This document shows positions 9,466 to 64,000 of a stretch of DNA of 64,000 bases, in pieces. Below the pieces are notes generated by a model, which was given only the letters and a program-made list of their open reading frames with translations, was not told the origin of the DNA and searched no databases. The number at the start of each line of letters is the position of its first letter. The first letter of the stretch is position 1. The position numbers were made by a program, and so were the translations under genes. The stretch comes from Piscinibacter lacus (GTDB taxonomy: Bacteria > Pseudomonadota > Gammaproteobacteria > Burkholderiales > Burkholderiaceae_C): the NCBI RefSeq assembly GCF_016735685.1, contig NZ_JAERRA010000001.1:868001-932000 (forward strand). The letters run 5' to 3'.

Positions 9466-9589
9466 CCGGACAAGGGTTGGAATCGCCGCCGGACGCAGGG
9501 CCGGGCGGCTGCCGCACGGTGGCGGAAGGTGCCCGCAGCCAGCCCCGCAGGCAAGCTGAAGGGCCGGGCCATGGGCCGATGCTTAGTGT

Positions 9590-9947
9590 GAAGCGGGCCG
9601 ATAGGCCGGATTCTGTGCAGGGTCGAAGGCTTGCGCCCGCGACCCCGTGACCGCCATTCCTCTGGGCCAGGGATCGCTCGCCTGGCTCGGTGCTACCCAC
9701 CCGCCGGCACGTGCGGGACCACACTCCACGCGACCCCGAGGGATCGCGCACGCCGGCCTATTCGGTATTGCTGCGCGCAGAGATTGCCCGTTTCACCCCA
9801 CCCGGTCGCCCGGGCGGACTCGTCTCTGTTGCTCTGATCCTCACCTCGCGGTGGAGAGCCGTTAGCTCCTGCGCTGCCCTGTGCAGTCCGGACCTTCCTC
9901 CCGTGCCACCTTTCGGATCCGGCACCGGCGGCGGTCTGGCCCGCTTC
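9590..9947 (-). ncRNA. rnpB: RNase P RNA (type A, catalytic RNA)
   Basis: On the minus strand the 5' end GAAGCGGGCC pairs with the 3' GGCCCGCTTC to form helix P1. Conserved landmarks appear in order: GAGGAAGGTCCGGACT and CAGGGCAGC near the 5' end, GGGTGAAACGGG, CAATACCGAATAGG, and near the 3' end CAGAATCCGGCCTATCGG. This core catalyses 5' maturation of tRNA precursors together with the RnpA protein. The length of about 358 nt fits bacterial type A. A GACAAT -10-like box lies just upstream at 9957-9962. The ends are estimated from P1. Confidence 0.96.
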
Positions 9948-58388: not shown

Positions 58389-59591
58389 CTAACGATCGGG
58401 CACCTCGTTCATCAGCGGCAGTTGCCGCATGTCGGCTGGCGGCAGCGTGCTGCGCAGGCGCGGCAGGCGCTCGGCCCCCGGCGGCGGGCTGACCTCGTCG
58501 GTGATCAAGGGCAGCTCGGGCAGCCAACTCGGCACGGTCTCGCTGATCTCGCCCAGCAGCGCCGCGGCGGCACTGAGCATGGGCCAGGCCAGCACGGCAC
58601 CGGTGCCGTCGGGGGCGTCCAGGTCCAGTTCGAGCAGGGCATTGGCGTGGAACACGCCGAAGGCTTGGTCCAGGCCCGGATGGCTGCTGCTGCGGGCGAA
58701 GAAGGCGTAGTCGACCACCGAGGGCGCGAGCCGCGCGGCCAGGGCCAGTGCGGCACAGGCCGGCAGGCCGTCGATCAGCAGGGTGCGGCGCTGGCCGGCG
58801 GCGGCGATCATGGCGCCGGCCAGCACGGCGATCTCGTGACCGCCGAAGGCGCACAGCACCTCGATCGGCCCGCGCGCCGAGAGGTGGCGCTTCTGCGCCC
58901 CTTGCAGCGCGACGAGCATGCGCGAGAGCCGGTCGGCCGTCATGTGCGGATCGACCAGCAGCTCGCGCAGCGGCAGCCGGCCCAGTTCGCAGAGGATGAG
59001 GGCCGCCGATTCCATGCTGCCCACGCCCACGCCGGCGCAGGCCAGCAGATTGCCCGGCAGGCCCTCGACGATGTCCAGGCCGGCACGCAGGCCGGCTTCG
59101 GCCTGCGCCGTGCTCATCGCCAGGCCGAGCCGGGTGTTGTGCGTGCCGTAGGCGATCTTGCGGCTGACCAGGGTGGGCGTGGGGGGCAGGTCCTCGGCCA
59201 GGCCGGCGTCGACCACGGTCAGGCCCACCCGCTGCTGGAAGGCGAAGGCCGCCATCGGCACCCGGCCGCCCAGGATGTGGCTGACCTGGGTGGCGCTGCT
59301 GGGCAGGTGGCCGCGGCCGAGGTCCACCGCCAGGCCGTGGTCACCCGCGACGACCAGCAACTGCGGCGAGCGCAGCCGCGGCTTGACCGTGTTCTGGATC
59401 AGGCCCAGCCGGATGGCCACGGCCTCAAGCTCGCCGTGGTAACCCGTCACGCCATGGCGGCGGCGCAGCTTGGCTTGCAGGGCATCGCGCAGCCAGGGCT
59501 GGCCGTGGATGGGCGCGATGGGGGCGAAGCCGGTGGCCCGGCGCCGTTGTTGCGCGGCAGCCGGACGGGGCGGAAGCTCAGGAACGGCCAT
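58389..59591 (-). CDS. cobT: Nicotinate-nucleotide--dimethylbenzimidazole phosphoribosyltransferase homologue
   Basis: CobT makes alpha-ribazole phosphate for the lower ligand of cobalamin. The 400-residue protein matches the family at 'VVAGDHGLAV', 'GTHNTRLG', 'AFGGHEIAVLAGAMIAA' and 'FGVFHANALLEL'. The catalytic Glu of the usual 'GEGSGA' loop is replaced by Asp ('PDGTGAVLAWPML'), and the 'GIGNTT' phosphate loop reads 'GVGSMES'. No other cobalamin genes are nearby. It lies 17 bp downstream of ilvA on the same strand. It may be a divergent paralogue with altered substrate. Confidence 0.75.
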   Translation of the reverse strand: MAVPELPPRPAAAQQRRRATGFAPIAPIHGQPWLRDALQAKLRRRHGVTGYHGELEAVAIRLGLIQNTVKPRLRSPQLLVVAGDHGLAVDLGRGHLPSSATQVSHILGGRVPMAAFAFQQRVGLTVVDAGLAEDLPPTPTLVSRKIAYGTHNTRLGLAMSTAQAEAGLRAGLDIVEGLPGNLLACAGVGVGSMESAALILCELGRLPLRELLVDPHMTADRLSRMLVALQGAQKRHLSARGPIEVLCAFGGHEIAVLAGAMIAAAGQRRTLLIDGLPACAALALAARLAPSVVDYAFFARSSSHPGLDQAFGVFHANALLELDLDAPDGTGAVLAWPMLSAAAALLGEISETVPSWLPELPLITDEVSPPPGAERLPRLRSTLPPADMRQLPLMNEVPDR

Positions 59592-59608: not shown

Positions 59609-61222
59609 TCAGCGAAGAAAAAGCCGGTAGACAGGATTGTCCGTCTCCTCGACGCAGGGCAAGTCCAGTTGCCGGAGGAAACGCTTGAGCTCCCCACCCT
59701 GCCCGCGGGGGATCTGCAGGCCGACCAGGATGCGGCCGTAGTCCGCGCCCTGGTTGCGGTAGTGGAAGAGGCTGATGTTCCAGGCCGGGTGCATGCTCGA
59801 CAGGAAACCCATCAGCGCACCCGGCCGCTCGGGGAAGACGAAGCGGAACAGGCGCTCGTCCTGGGCCAGCTCCGAGCGCCCGCCGACCATGTGGCGGATG
59901 TGGGTCTGGGCCAGCTCGTCGTGGCTGAGGTCGACGGTGGCAAAGCCCTGCGCGCCGAATTCGGCCGCGATCCGCGCCGACTCGCCCGGCTGCGACAGGC
60001 TCAGGCCGACGAAGACCTGCGCGGTCGCGGCATCCGAGATGCGGTAGTTGAACTCGGTCACGCTGCGCGGGCCGATCAGCTCGCAGAAGCGGCGGAAGCT
60101 GCCGCGCTCCTCGGGGATGGTCACGGCGAACAGGGCCTCGCGCTGCTCGCCAAGCTCGGCCCGCTCGGCGACGAAGCGCAGGCGGTCGAAGTTCATGTTC
60201 GCGCCGCAGGCGATCGCGATCAGCGAGCCGCGCTCGCCCGCCGGCGCCTTGCCGCGCCGCGCCTCGGCGGCGCGCTGGCGCGCCACGTACTGCTTCAGCC
60301 CGGCCAGGCCCAGGGCCCCGGCCGGCTCGACGAGGGCCCGGGTCGTCTGGAAGACATCCTTGATCGCGGCGCAGACCGCGTCGGTGTCGACCACCTCGTA
60401 GCCGTCGACCAGGGCGCGGGCGATGCGGAAGGTTTCCTCGCCGACCTGCTTGACGGCGGTGCCGTCCGAGAACAGGCCCACGTCATGCAGCACCACGCGC
60501 TTGCCCGCCTCGACCGAGCGGACCATCGCATCCGAATCCTTGGTCTGCACGCCGATCACCTGGATCTCCGGCCGCACGGCCTTGATGCAGGCGGCGACAC
60601 CGGCAATCAGGCCGCCGCCGCCGATGGCGACGAAGACCGCCTCGATCGGCCCTTGGTGCTGGCGCAGGATCTCCATTGCCACCGTGCCCTGGCCGGCGAT
60701 CACGTCCGGATCGTCGAAGGGGTGGACGAAGGTGGCGCCGGTCGATTTCTCCAGCGTCAGCGCATGCGCGTAGGCGTCGGAATAGCTGGTGCCGTGCAGC
60801 ACGATGTTCACCGCCGCGCCGCCGTGGCGGCGCACTGCGTCGATCTTGAGCTGCGGCGTCGTCACCGGCATCACGATGGTGGCCGCGCAGCCCATGCGCC
60901 GCGCCGACAGCGCGACGCCCTGGGCATGGTTGCCGGCCGAGGCGCAGATCACGCCGCGCTCGCGCTGGGCCGGGCGCAGCCGCGCCATCTTGTTGTAGGC
61001 GCCGCGCAGCTTGAAGCTGAACACCGGCTGGGTGTCCTCGCGCTTGAGGAAGACCGGCGCGCCCAGGCGCTCGCTGAGCTGGGGGGCGGGGTCGAGGGCG
61101 GACTCGATCGCCACGTCGTAGACCCGCGCCGTCAGGATGCGCTGCAGGTAGTCGGCCAGCATCGACGGGTCGGCGGCGGCACGAACGCGGCGCGCAGGGG
61201 TTCGGGAAACGCGGGAGGGCAT
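59609..61222 (-). CDS. ilvA: Threonine ammonia-lyase, biosynthetic
   Basis: IlvA deaminates threonine to 2-oxobutanoate, the first step to isoleucine. The 537-residue frame has a PLP-dependent fold-type II catalytic domain ('FSFKLRGAYNKMA' with the PLP lysine, 'CASAGNHAQGVA', 'AIGGGGLIAGVAA') and two C-terminal ACT-like regulatory domains ('FVFPERPGALMGFL') that would bind isoleucine. An in-frame ATG at 61162 gives 517 residues, closer to the family norm; neither start has a clear ribosome site. A promoter and an intrinsic terminator lie upstream, which suggests attenuation or a leader small RNA. Confidence 0.94.
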   Translation of the reverse strand: MPSRVSRTPARRVRAAADPSMLADYLQRILTARVYDVAIESALDPAPQLSERLGAPVFLKREDTQPVFSFKLRGAYNKMARLRPAQRERGVICASAGNHAQGVALSARRMGCAATIVMPVTTPQLKIDAVRRHGGAAVNIVLHGTSYSDAYAHALTLEKSTGATFVHPFDDPDVIAGQGTVAMEILRQHQGPIEAVFVAIGGGGLIAGVAACIKAVRPEIQVIGVQTKDSDAMVRSVEAGKRVVLHDVGLFSDGTAVKQVGEETFRIARALVDGYEVVDTDAVCAAIKDVFQTTRALVEPAGALGLAGLKQYVARQRAAEARRGKAPAGERGSLIAIACGANMNFDRLRFVAERAELGEQREALFAVTIPEERGSFRRFCELIGPRSVTEFNYRISDAATAQVFVGLSLSQPGESARIAAEFGAQGFATVDLSHDELAQTHIRHMVGGRSELAQDERLFRFVFPERPGALMGFLSSMHPAWNISLFHYRNQGADYGRILVGLQIPRGQGGELKRFLRQLDLPCVEETDNPVYRLFLR

Positions 61223-61305
61223 GCCGGGAAGGGGCGGAAAATTCGCCGGATCATAGGCGAGGCCCTCGGGCGCCCCGCCGCGCGGCCGCGCCGCGATCCG
61301 GCCAG

Positions 61306-61337
61306 AAAAAAGGCCCCGGGTCCTGAGACCCGGGGCC
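61306..61337 (-). terminator. Strong intrinsic terminator upstream of ilvA
   Basis: A perfect 11-bp GC stem (61312-61322 with 61327-61337) closes on a 4-base loop and, on the minus strand, runs into TTTTTT (61311-61306). It ends 83 bases before the upper ilvA start. It ends the predicted small RNA, or attenuates ilvA. Confidence 0.9.
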
Positions 61338-61427
61338 CAATCCACCTATCGAGGAGGGGTGGAGGAGACAAGCGGCGGGAAGCGGGTGGCGTTTCGGGGG
61401 GAACGTGAGGCCTTGCGCTTCCGATGC
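61306..61427 (-). ncRNA. Predicted small RNA or ilvA leader RNA with anti-Shine-Dalgarno loop
   Basis: From a predicted start near 61427 to the terminator T run, about 120 nt contain no convincing open frame. A hairpin (UCCACC/GGUGGA stems at 61341-61346 and 61358-61363) shows an 11-base loop beginning CCUCCUC, and a second UCUCCUCC lies just upstream of it. Both can pair with ribosome-binding sites. This matches the loop style of proteobacterial CUCCUCCC-motif RNAs. It could instead be an attenuated ilvA leader. Confidence 0.5.
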
Positions 61428-61432
61428 CCCGT

Positions 61433-61460
61433 ATTCTAGGGGCTAACCCTAGATTTGCAA
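61433..61460 (-). promoter_or_regulatory. Sigma-70-type promoter upstream of ilvA
   Basis: On the minus strand TTGCAA (61460-61455) and TAGAAT (61438-61433) are separated by 16 bp. Each box has four or more matches to the consensus. Transcription would begin near 61427 and meet the intrinsic terminator at 61337-61306. Confidence 0.6.
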
Positions 61461-61620
61461 GCGTCTCGACCGCCGGGAAGCGCATTTCAAGCCGCGATGA
61501 GCCGGTCCGGAACGGCCCGGATCCGGGCTTCACCGGCGTCGCCTGCGAGGGTGACAATCCGCCACCCGGCCGGCGGCGGCCCGTCCGGGGCCCCCGCATG
61601 CCGCCTGGGAAAGTCGATCG

Positions 61621-62043
61621 ATGGAATGCACCGTGCGCTGGCAACCCGAGGCCGGCATGGCTTTCGTGGCCGAAACCGGCAGTGGCCACCTGCTGACGAT
61701 GGACGGTGCGCCCGAGGGCGGCGGCCGCAACCTGGCGCCGCGGCCGATGGAGACCGTGCTGGCTGGCACCGCGGCGTGCAGTGCCTACGACGTGGTCCTG
61801 ATCCTCAAGCGCGGCCGGCATGCGGTGAGCGGCTGCGAGGTCAAGGTGCAGGCCGAGCGTGCGCCCCAGGATCCCAAGGTGTTCACCCGCCTCAGCCTGC
61901 ACTACCGCGTCAGCGGCAAGGGCCTGAGCGCGACGGCGGTCGAGCGCGCGGTGCAGCTTTCGCACGACAAGTACTGCTCGGCCAGCGCCATGCTGGCCAA
62001 GACGGCCGAGATCGGCCACAGCGTCGAGGTCGTGGAGGCCTGA
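61621..62043 (+). CDS. OsmC family protein
   Basis: This is a 140-residue OsmC-fold protein of the YhfA type. 'MECTVRWQPEAGMAF' opens the family, and the two cysteines that define OsmC/Ohr-type peroxidases are present in 'GTAACSAYDVVLIL' and 'HDKYCSASAML'. It probably has organic-hydroperoxide or stress-related thiol activity. It diverges from ilvA with the leader-RNA region between. Confidence 0.88.
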   Translation: MECTVRWQPEAGMAFVAETGSGHLLTMDGAPEGGGRNLAPRPMETVLAGTAACSAYDVVLILKRGRHAVSGCEVKVQAERAPQDPKVFTRLSLHYRVSGKGLSATAVERAVQLSHDKYCSASAMLAKTAEIGHSVEVVEA

Positions 62044-62079: not shown

Positions 62080-62715
62080 TCAGATCCGGTGGGCCGTGAA
62101 GGTCATCACCTTGGCCGCGCCGCGCATCGCCCAGCGCAGCGGCGCCGGCAAGGCCGTACCGCCGGCCGCCTCGGCCTCGCGAGCGTGGCGCACCTCGTCG
62201 TCCCGCATCTGTTGCACCACCGCCCGGGAGGCGGTGTCGCCCGCCGGCAGGCGATCGAGGTGGCCGTCGAGATGCTGCTCGACCTGGCGCTCGGTCTCGG
62301 CCACGAAGCCCAGGCTGGCACGGTCGCCCGCCCGCCCGGCGAGCAGGCCCAAGCCGAAGGCGCCGGCATACCAGATCGGATTGAGCAGGCTGGGCCGGCC
62401 GCCCAGGGCGGCCAGGCGCTGCTCGCACCAGGCCAGGTGGTCGGTCTCGTCGCGGGCGGCCGCTTCGAAGTGGGCGCGCAGGGCCGCATCCTTCGTGGCC
62501 AGGGCCTGGGCCTGGTAGAGCGCCTGGGCGCAGACCTCGCCCACATGGTTGACCCGCATCAGCGCCGCTGCCTCGCGGCGTTCCGCTTCGCTCAGCGGTG
62601 TTTCGGCTTCGGTTGCGGTCGGGCAGGGGCGCTGGGCCGTGTGGCGCGCCCAGATCGTCCGCAGGGCATGGTCGACCGCGTGCAGGCCGCGGTCCAGGGG
62701 GGAGTCGAGGGGCAT
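62080..62715 (-). CDS. coq7: 2-polyprenyl-3-methyl-6-methoxy-1,4-benzoquinone monooxygenase
   Basis: Coq7 is the di-iron hydroxylase of a late ubiquinone step. The 211-residue protein has iron ligands in '[13 protein letters not shown]', '[14 protein letters not shown]', '[10 protein letters not shown]' and '[13 protein letters not shown]', in the ExnH pattern. A hydrophobic helix near 105-125 ('[18 protein letters not shown]') attaches it to the membrane. The ATG at 62715 ([20 protein letters not shown]) is the family start; the frame extends to 62931 without support. Confidence 0.93.
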
Positions 62716-63007: not shown

Positions 63008-64000
63008 ATGAAGAAGTCTTTGATCGCGCTGGCCGTTCTCGGCGCATTCGCTGGCGCCGCTTCGGCCCAGTCGTCGGTGACGCTGTATGGCCGCGCCGAC
63101 CTGAACCTCACCCACGAGAAGGCGGGTGACAGCATCAACAACGCAGCCGCTGGCGAATCGACTACCAGGCTGAACGATGGCGGCGGCACCACCGGCATTG
63201 GTGGCTCGCGCTGGGGCATGCGTGGCGTCGAAGACCTCGGCAATGGCATCAAGGCGGTCTTCATTCTCGAGTCGGGCTTTGCCTCGGACACGGGTGCGTC
63301 GGGCCAGGGCGGTCGCCTCTTCGGTCGTCAGGCCTGGGTTGGCCTGTCGTCGTCCAGCCTGGGCGACATCCGCTTCGGTCGCCAGGAAACCTACTCGCGC
63401 CTGAACGCCCTGTACTGGGATCCTTCGTTCAACGGTCAGACCAAGCTCAACGAGAGCAATGCGGTCTCCCTGGACGCTGCAACGGCCAACGCCATCGTTG
63501 CCGAGGGCATTCCCGGCATCGCCACTGTCGCGCAGGCGCGTGCCGCCGTGACCCGCAACTACCTGCTGTTCCAGAACTTTGGCGACCGCCAGGACAACGT
63601 CATCTCCTACACCTCGCCGAACTTCTCGGGCTTCCGTTTCGGTGCCCAGATCGGTCTGTCGGAGCAGCCCAGCGACGCCACGGCTGACGTGGCCGGCCGC
63701 TACCAGGGCGTGACCGCGTCGTACACCAGCGGTCCCTTCGCCGCCGGCGTGTCCTATGAGTCGATCAAGGTCGGTGATGTCGCTCCGGGCGCCGAAGACG
63801 ACCTGAACAAGACCTTCTCGATCGGCGCGAACTACAACTTCGGTTTCGCCACCGTCTACGCCGGCTTCCAGAAGACCAGCGACGTGGCCGATGGCAGCCA
63901 GATCACCTCGGCTGCCACCAACACCGTGGCGCCGAGCAGCCTGATCATCGAAGACCAGACTTCGTACACCATCGGCGTGAAGGTTCCGCTGGGCAAGTTC
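63008..64000 (+). CDS. Gram-negative outer-membrane porin, Burkholderiales type (cut by window edge)
   Basis: This trimeric general-diffusion porin is visible over its first 331 residues; the frame is open at base 64000. The signal peptide 'MKKSLIALAVLGAFAGAASAQSS' is followed by 'VTLYGRADLNLTHEK', 'GSRWGMRGVEDLGNGIKAVFILESGF' and 'GRLFGRQAWVGLSSSSLGDIRFGRQETY', the opening strands of the Burkholderia Omp38/Neisseria porin family. The start is set by AGGAG seven bases upstream. The C-terminal strands lie outside the window. Confidence 0.95.
   Translation, partial: MKKSLIALAVLGAFAGAASAQSSVTLYGRADLNLTHEKAGDSINNAAAGESTTRLNDGGGTTGIGGSRWGMRGVEDLGNGIKAVFILESGFASDTGASGQGGRLFGRQAWVGLSSSSLGDIRFGRQETYSRLNALYWDPSFNGQTKLNESNAVSLDAATANAIVAEGIPGIATVAQARAAVTRNYLLFQNFGDRQDNVISYTSPNFSGFRFGAQIGLSEQPSDATADVAGRYQGVTASYTSGPFAAGVSYESIKVGDVAPGAEDDLNKTFSIGANYNFGFATVYAGFQKTSDVADGSQITSAATNTVAPSSLIIEDQTSYTIGVKVPLGKF

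Follow-up and report, generated by a model that had tools for sequence, protein, structure and literature searches.

Between ilvA and a divergently transcribed gene for an OsmC family protein, the window analysed here (the whole stretch of DNA, 64,000 nucleotides in length) contains a promoter-like site followed by two hairpins, which raises the question of whether these elements form a leader that controls ilvA or a separate small RNA (sRNA) that acts elsewhere. All of them lie on the reverse strand. The predicted sigma-70-type promoter, TTGCAA-16-TAGAAT (61433–61460; TTGCAA at 61460–61455 and TAGAAT at 61438–61433), is the sole promoter-like site in 60900–61900 when both strands are scanned, with 0.1 expected. 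The transcript would run from the predicted transcription start site (+7, at around 61426) through the T tract, a length of 121 nt. A 5′ leader, predicted at about 55 nt (61371–61426), which varies in both sequence and length among relatives, precedes a core of 65 nt (61306–61370) that consists of UGUCUCCUCC at its 5′ end, a 6-bp hairpin with a CU-rich loop, a terminator hairpin and a U tract. Site 1 (UCUCCUCC, 61361–61368) belongs to the 5′ segment of the core, UGUCUCCUCCA, is complementary to GGAGGAGA ribosome-binding sites (RBSs) and shares its last three letters with hairpin 1. This hairpin (UCCACC-CCUCCUCGAUA-GGUGGA, 61341–61363), recognized by reading, folding and comparison with relatives, carries a second CU-rich stretch in its loop. 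The intrinsic terminator (GGCCCCGGGUC-UCAG-GACCCGGGGCC, 61306–61338) has 11 perfect pairs, a UCAG loop and six T residues that end at 61306. The original prediction had named the promoter, a hairpin with an 11-base loop starting CCUCCUC, a second anti-Shine–Dalgarno-type stretch and a perfect 11-bp terminator with six T residues, and each is present.

As a word alone, UCUCCUCC is not above chance (2 occurrences in the window versus 2.4 expected). The fold of the 65-nt core has an energy of −37.5 kcal/mol (z = −4.47), which none of 200 shuffles equalled, and the unit as a whole is above chance, with an E value of 1.8e-10 for RF02278 in an Rfam scan of both strands of the 64 kb. The ilvA frame is open back to a GTG at 61345 within the sRNA, as an open frame only.

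By sequence, 61306–61370 is a member of the Rfam family RF02278, ‘Betaproteobacteria toxic sRNA’: its cmscan score is 63.6 bits against a gathering cut-off of 50, and the hallmarks of the family (the 5′ segment with Site 1, the hairpin with a CU-rich loop and the terminator hairpin) are all present. Otherwise, only an RNase P RNA and a tRNA score above the Rfam cut-offs in the window, the former being a full-length bacterial RNase P RNA class A (9586–9947, reverse strand). The genome from which the window derives (G000) has a single RF02278 match. Within its own family, 170 of 200 genomes have a match at E ≤ 0.001, above the cut-off in 141; in an order-wide draw, 244 of 399 genomes have a match, above the cut-off in 144. 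The segment UGUCUCCUCCA is invariant in 71 of 71 aligned own-family sequences, a sample of high-scoring or chosen loci from the 170 genomes with a match that leans to good members because the start of the alignment was fixed by finding TGTCTCC; some copies in other families deviate there (CGTCTCC, TCTCCTCTA).

In the own-family alignment, 96.2% of the cells preserve the base pairs of the structure. The covariation score is 0.349, a value reached by none of 500 shuffles (mean 0.143), and drops to 0.08–0.09 once each partner is shifted by a column. The count of pairs with any change on both sides does not exceed that in shuffles: it is 8, versus an average of 6.6, and 81 of 500 shuffles reach this value. 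In hairpin 1, a C–G pair is replaced by U–A in 8 of 69 distinct own-family relatives, and in the terminator both sides have changed at 7 of 9 scored pairs among relatives. The idea that the element is a separate sRNA offering CU-rich stretches to ribosome sites is supported by the curated family match, the invariant 5′ segment, the compensatory changes in the two hairpins, the promoter-like site and the terminator. The sRNA adds a member to an established family, and the locus can be annotated as RF02278. The label of a CUCCUCCC-motif sRNA, which it had also been given, holds as a resemblance and not as a family assignment, the family being RF02278. The ‘cuckoo’ CUCCUCCC-motif sRNAs of alphaproteobacteria have a CUCCUCCC loop and adjoin a CcaF1-type gene, whereas the loop here reads CCUCCUCGAUA and the neighbours are ilvA and osmC.

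The RF02278 set includes ncS03, ncS05, ncS27 and ncS62 of B. cenocepacia and Hsnc059, Hsnc063, Hsnc086 and Hsnc107 of H. seropedicae, with which the sRNA of the window has in common its sequence, two hairpins, two CU-rich stretches and a terminator. In the available text of PMC5688073, ncS27 and its three B. cenocepacia homologues are termed ‘double-hairpin RNAs’, and other Burkholderia are given three to five copies, compared with one in the genome of the window. The loop CCUCCUCGAUA is common to the window and, with one base different, to its congener (L062), whereas most own-family relatives have CUCCUCC-like loops. S17 of Bordetella pertussis resembles the window in its RF02278-like core, a nearby coq7, a sigma-70-type promoter and a leader to be cut off, although its long form, S17L, is 190 nt and the transcript predicted here about 121 nt. 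MmgR (RF00519) of alphaproteobacteria is a small Hfq-dependent RNA, the Rfam consensus of which combines a terminator with a CUCC stretch left unpaired; we treat it as an analogue and claim no homology to RF02278, the RF00519 scores of the window (16.2 bits) and of locus L032 (19.7 bits) being below the cut-off of 41. NmsRb of Neisseria (RF02877) is described as having CU-rich stretches complementary to RBSs, as in the sRNA of the window; the NmsRs occur as a tandem, unlike the sRNA here, and the RF02877 score is below the cut-off (30.2 versus 52 bits).

On the same strand as the sRNA, ilvA encodes a biosynthetic threonine ammonia-lyase (59609–61222, translated from 61219), with a probable ATG start at 61222–61220. 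On the other side lie the gene for the OsmC family protein (61621–62043, forward strand; Pfam OsmC), divergent from the sRNA, and coq7, which encodes 2-polyprenyl-3-methyl-6-methoxy-1,4-benzoquinone monooxygenase (62080–62715, reverse strand; translated from 62712). Further out are a gene for a CobT-like protein (nicotinate-nucleotide–dimethylbenzimidazole phosphoribosyltransferase; 58389–59591, reverse strand; 195 bits versus an NCBIfam cut-off of 319) and a porin-like gene that runs off the window (63008–64000, forward strand), with a weak PorB-type match (50 versus 480 bits). In the own family, osmC is found within 1.6 kb of the sRNA in 70 of 71 loci, upstream and divergent in 69, and ilvA is downstream on the same strand in 66; in the other five, ilvA may be elsewhere or beyond the stretch covered. 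Among 110 loci from other families (the synteny loci are about 3 kb in length, and the 110 include several copies from multi-copy genomes), osmC is found at 54, coq7 at 27 and ilvA at none, so the sRNA does not stand before ilvA wherever it occurs. Thus, conservation next to the sRNA extends more widely for osmC than for ilvA, and on these counts the sRNA belongs to an osmC/coq7 neighbourhood behind which ilvA is found in one family only. S17 of B. pertussis likewise adjoins coq7, according to the accessible text of PMC11722255.

A TATGAT sequence lies upstream of ilvA (61255–61250, reverse strand) and is kept in the congener G081. In the stretch from the terminator to where ilvA homology begins, which can take in some N-terminal codons of ilvA, TAT[GC]AT is present in 54 of 66 loci, compared with a mean of 1.2 in mononucleotide shuffles. 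As the promoter scan of 60900–61900 yielded no −35 partner for it, we regard TATGAT as a −10-like box and not as a proven promoter. A cis-acting leader, in which the hairpins attenuate ilvA transcription in response to isoleucine or another signal, is favoured by the order of promoter, hairpins and ilvA on one strand, by the presence of ilvA in most own-family loci (66 of 71) and by a promoter scan that gave ilvA itself no site with both hexamers. However, ilvA is found at 0 of the 110 other-family loci, whereas osmC is kept at 54; a −10-like box separates the terminator from ilvA in 54 of 66 loci; the sequence read contains no Ile-rich leader peptide, as the original prediction had already noted; and the invariant part of the element is the anti-Shine–Dalgarno segment. 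Attenuation of ilvA, the second reading offered in that prediction, was rejected on the synteny and the separate box; we consider a cis-acting leader extremely unlikely, and the RF02278 identity allows the attenuator idea to be dropped. A dual role, in which a trans-acting sRNA is combined with some polymerase read-through that feeds ilvA, agrees with the stable co-orientation of the two genes in the own family and with an ilvA −10-like box that has no recognized −35 partner, but it is unlikely given the compensatory changes that preserve the terminator and the separate −10-like box of ilvA. The sRNA is thus probably not an ilvA switch but a free-standing RNA.

A third alternative concerns how such an RNA would act. 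As a bulk inhibitor of translation or toxin, it would be an anti-Shine–Dalgarno mimic that titrates ribosomes and not a regulator of chosen mRNAs, in keeping with the name of the family and with toxicity when introduced or over-expressed in Escherichia coli, as reported in the available parts of PMC4603805 and PMC5688073 (original, Kimelman 2012). Over-expression of S17S, however, spared exponential growth of E. coli BL21 and modestly impaired later growth; moreover, ncS27 is said to slow growth on several substrates but not on others (PMC10987360, available text), and defined genes respond to S17 (PMC11722255, available text). This explanation appears improbable. We instead hold, with high confidence, that the locus is an independent transcription unit for a trans-acting, base-pairing RF02278 sRNA.

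For this transcription unit, family membership, structure, the promoter-like site, the terminator and ilvA-independent conservation come from the sequence itself; transcription, processing, Hfq binding and targets we infer from characterized relatives. Sigma-70 RNA polymerase would initiate at around 61426 and halt at the terminator to give an RNA of about 121 nt, the leader of which RNase E would trim, by analogy with S17, to leave a stable core of about 65 nt. Removal of the leader is expected from S17, which is described in the accessible text of PMC11722255 as being made as 190 nt, processed by RNase E to 67 nt and bound to Hfq, and as repressing through single-stranded Sites 1 and 2 that are complementary to the RBSs of regulated genes. 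In the window, UGUCUCCUCC (Site 1) and the CU-rich loop (Site 2) would, together with Hfq, pair with G-rich RBSs and block the translation of metabolic and transport genes; judging from the relatives, the sRNA probably blocks ribosome landing sites on mRNAs. The targets of ncS27-type sRNAs are predicted at the RBSs of carbon and amino-acid genes (PMC5688073, available text), and over-expression of ncS27 is reported to slow growth (PMC5688073; review PMC10987360; both in part).

Candidate targets were sought by pattern. The strong target site GGAGGAGACA-N0-8-ATG has no occurrence in the own genome. The pattern GGAGGAGA-N3-9-ATG occurs at 10 places in G000 and 18 in G081, of which one is the complement of the sRNA itself, and its reverse at 0; some of the 10 places in G000 do not precede a convincing gene, and the genes at these places are candidate targets as leads only. 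They include a G000 thiolase for which NCBIfam gives BktB as best match, below the cut-off because the query was truncated; in G000 also a CitE/RipC-like CoA-ester lyase, the RBS of which is almost unchanged in G081; and a third gene, retained by both species, that looks by eye like one for a fructose-bisphosphatase. The RBS of the BktB-like thiolase, GGAGGAGAC (G000:C2:354071-354085; L273), has 9 nt of complementarity to Site 1, and a BktB-like thiolase with this RBS was not found in the congener. Strong targeting of phasin mRNAs, as proposed for MmgR, was rejected, as GGAGGAGA is present at none of seven phasin RBSs; this rejection is weak, the sRNA–phasin duplex energies (−13.9 to −20.4 kcal/mol) having been calculated without a control.

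When the sRNA promoters of relatives were aligned by eye, TTGC-N3-GCA was seen over the −35. This resembles the site of PhaR, which senses the storage plastic PHB. Available portions of published work give the PhaR site deduced in Ralstonia eutropha as YTKNTGCRNYGCANMAR (PMC12849132) and the PhbF site of Herbaspirillum as TG-N-TGC-N3-GCAA (PMC3206438), and report that in Sinorhizobium a similar site in the mmgR promoter is bound by PhaR (PhaR/AniA in S. meliloti), which represses this sRNA (PMC12542648; review PMC8401924). A first count, with TTGCNNNGCANCA in 250 bp, gave 55 of 101 for perfect matches and 87 of 101 when up to one mismatch was allowed (3 and 31 of 377 in the control); the counts that follow are from a later scan with the published motif. 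PhaR (PF07879) is encoded in 195 of 200 own-family genomes and 266 of 399 genomes of the order. In PhaR-positive Burkholderiales, TGCRNYGCA is found upstream at 115 of 146 sRNA loci (110 of 132 genomes), usually over the −35, compared with 23 of 951 control windows; the perfect core is absent from the stretch scanned at the other 31 loci, the scan having covered −170 to −15 and thus missed boxes less than 15 nt from the sRNA core. One of 181 loci (L072) was left out, as it has no upstream sequence. In genomes without PF07879, the TGCRNYGCA core is present at 3 of 34 loci, all three in genomes that are 64 to 85% complete, and at 0 of 27 loci in the 24 PhaR-less genomes that are at least 90% complete; the Fisher p of 9e-16 ignores relatedness, and those 24 genomes fall in eight families. 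As many as 26 of the 34 loci in PhaR-less genomes are not linked to osmC. Among loci without osmC, the core is present at 12 of 30 in PhaR-positive genomes and at 0 of 26 in PhaR-less ones; among those with osmC, the corresponding counts are 103 of 116 and 3 of 8. One clean contrast was seen within a genus (G488, with neither PhaR nor box, versus G372, with both), and genus g150 has an absent or imperfect box whether or not PhaR is encoded (G208, G339 and G491).

A central R-N-Y, not required by the search, is present in 95 of 100 TTGCNNNGCA sequences found upstream. At 87 of 118 perfect-core loci, TANNNT is spaced 15–19 from the −35 hexamer that the box contains, with a spacing of exactly 17 at 63 of them, compared with 44 of 3,084 in the control. 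In 11 of these 87 promoters the predicted leader has a length of about zero (−2 to 0 nt), and in the others it measures 22 to 100 nt, a variation that agrees with the 65-nt core being the conserved, working part. A combined scan for the S17 promoter hexamers and the sRNA core returned 12 mutually related loci (Bordetella hinzii, B. genomosp. 1 and 5, two Achromobacter and seven metagenome assemblies; B. pertussis is not among them), and TGCATYGCACAA is present in 12 of 12, the query having fixed TTGCAT and left only the following letters free. In 8 genomes of the family, there are 53 exact occurrences of the 17-base motif, compared with 3 of the reversed pattern; phasin genes (PF09361) adjoin 7 of the 53, all 7 checked with Pfam and none in G000, from 8 tested of 113 candidate ORFs at motif places, many other places being inside ORFs. 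The exact motif also occurs at the same place, judged by ORF distances, in four genomes including that of the window (L200, L186, L197 and L220), and the ORF beside it at L200 reads, by eye, like ExbD/TolR.

Given this enrichment of the box with phaR, the RF02278 family is probably repressed by PhaR in Burkholderiales, with the box as putative operator, as MmgR is in Sinorhizobium. When no PHB is present, PhaR would sit on the −35 of the sRNA; in carbon excess it would leave for the PHB granules, which would sequester it and derepress the sRNA, and the freed sRNA would act at RBSs to switch off the uptake and catabolism of carbon sources and amino acids. We consider it likely that RF02278 is in this way the betaproteobacterial arm of PHB sensing, a scheme that takes in the PhaR cycle, the shutdown of uptake, the S17 repressor, a circuit common to alpha- and betaproteobacteria and a rewiring in the genus of the window. 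If so, PhaR would be the repressor that the authors of the S17 study postulated without naming it (PMC11722255, available text); alpha- and betaproteobacteria would share repression of an anti-Shine–Dalgarno sRNA by PhaR (MmgR and RF02278); and the sRNA in the genus of the window would have been rewired to another regulator. The available text of PMC5688073 calls the regulator of ncS27 accumulation ‘yet unknown’ and notes an unnamed common upstream motif in three homologues. In the portions available, PhaR and PHB are absent from the main texts of PMC5688073 and PMC11722255, as are PhaR and hydroxybutyrate from PMC10987360, and a link between RF02278 and PhaR is in no title or abstract opening among the matches listed. 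A PhaR box at RF02278 promoters was found in no paper searched. A widespread sRNA family would gain a named and easily deleted candidate repressor, and its physiological signal would be PHB and carbon excess. This promoter result matters more than the element itself, which is of a known kind, and the PhaR link in relatives is the part worth following.

The window itself is an exception. Between the osmC start and the sRNA it has no perfect TGCRNYGCA core, and neither G000 nor its congener G081 has a PhaR-type box at the sRNA promoter, unlike the 12 loci found through the S17 hexamers. Loss of the box through loss of PhaR was ruled out, as PF07879 is present in both genomes. Their phasin genes (that of G000 located by homology) each have three perfect cores within about 140 bp upstream. 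With PhaR and the phasin cores retained, the regulon seems to persist and the sRNA of the window to have left it; as the box is missing, control in this genus must differ, and we infer from the sequence a replacing regulator. In the part of the promoter that holds the PhaR-type box in most relatives, across the spacer and the −10, lies a palindrome, TCTAGGG-TTAGC-CCCTAGA (61435–61453, reverse strand), which was matched to no known operator of any family. It is part of a 36-nt promoter block that is identical in G000 and G081 while the flanks differ, and TAGGG-N5-CCCTA occurs once in G000 and twice in the congener; the palindrome is a possible single-site operator.

Elsewhere, in the multi-copy family f8, in which one genome has nine sRNA matches, the PhaR-type box is, by eye, nearer to the transcription start site in extra copies, perfect in L178 and imperfect in L154, L155, L179 and L180, and the position of the PhaR operator may therefore differ among sRNA paralogues.
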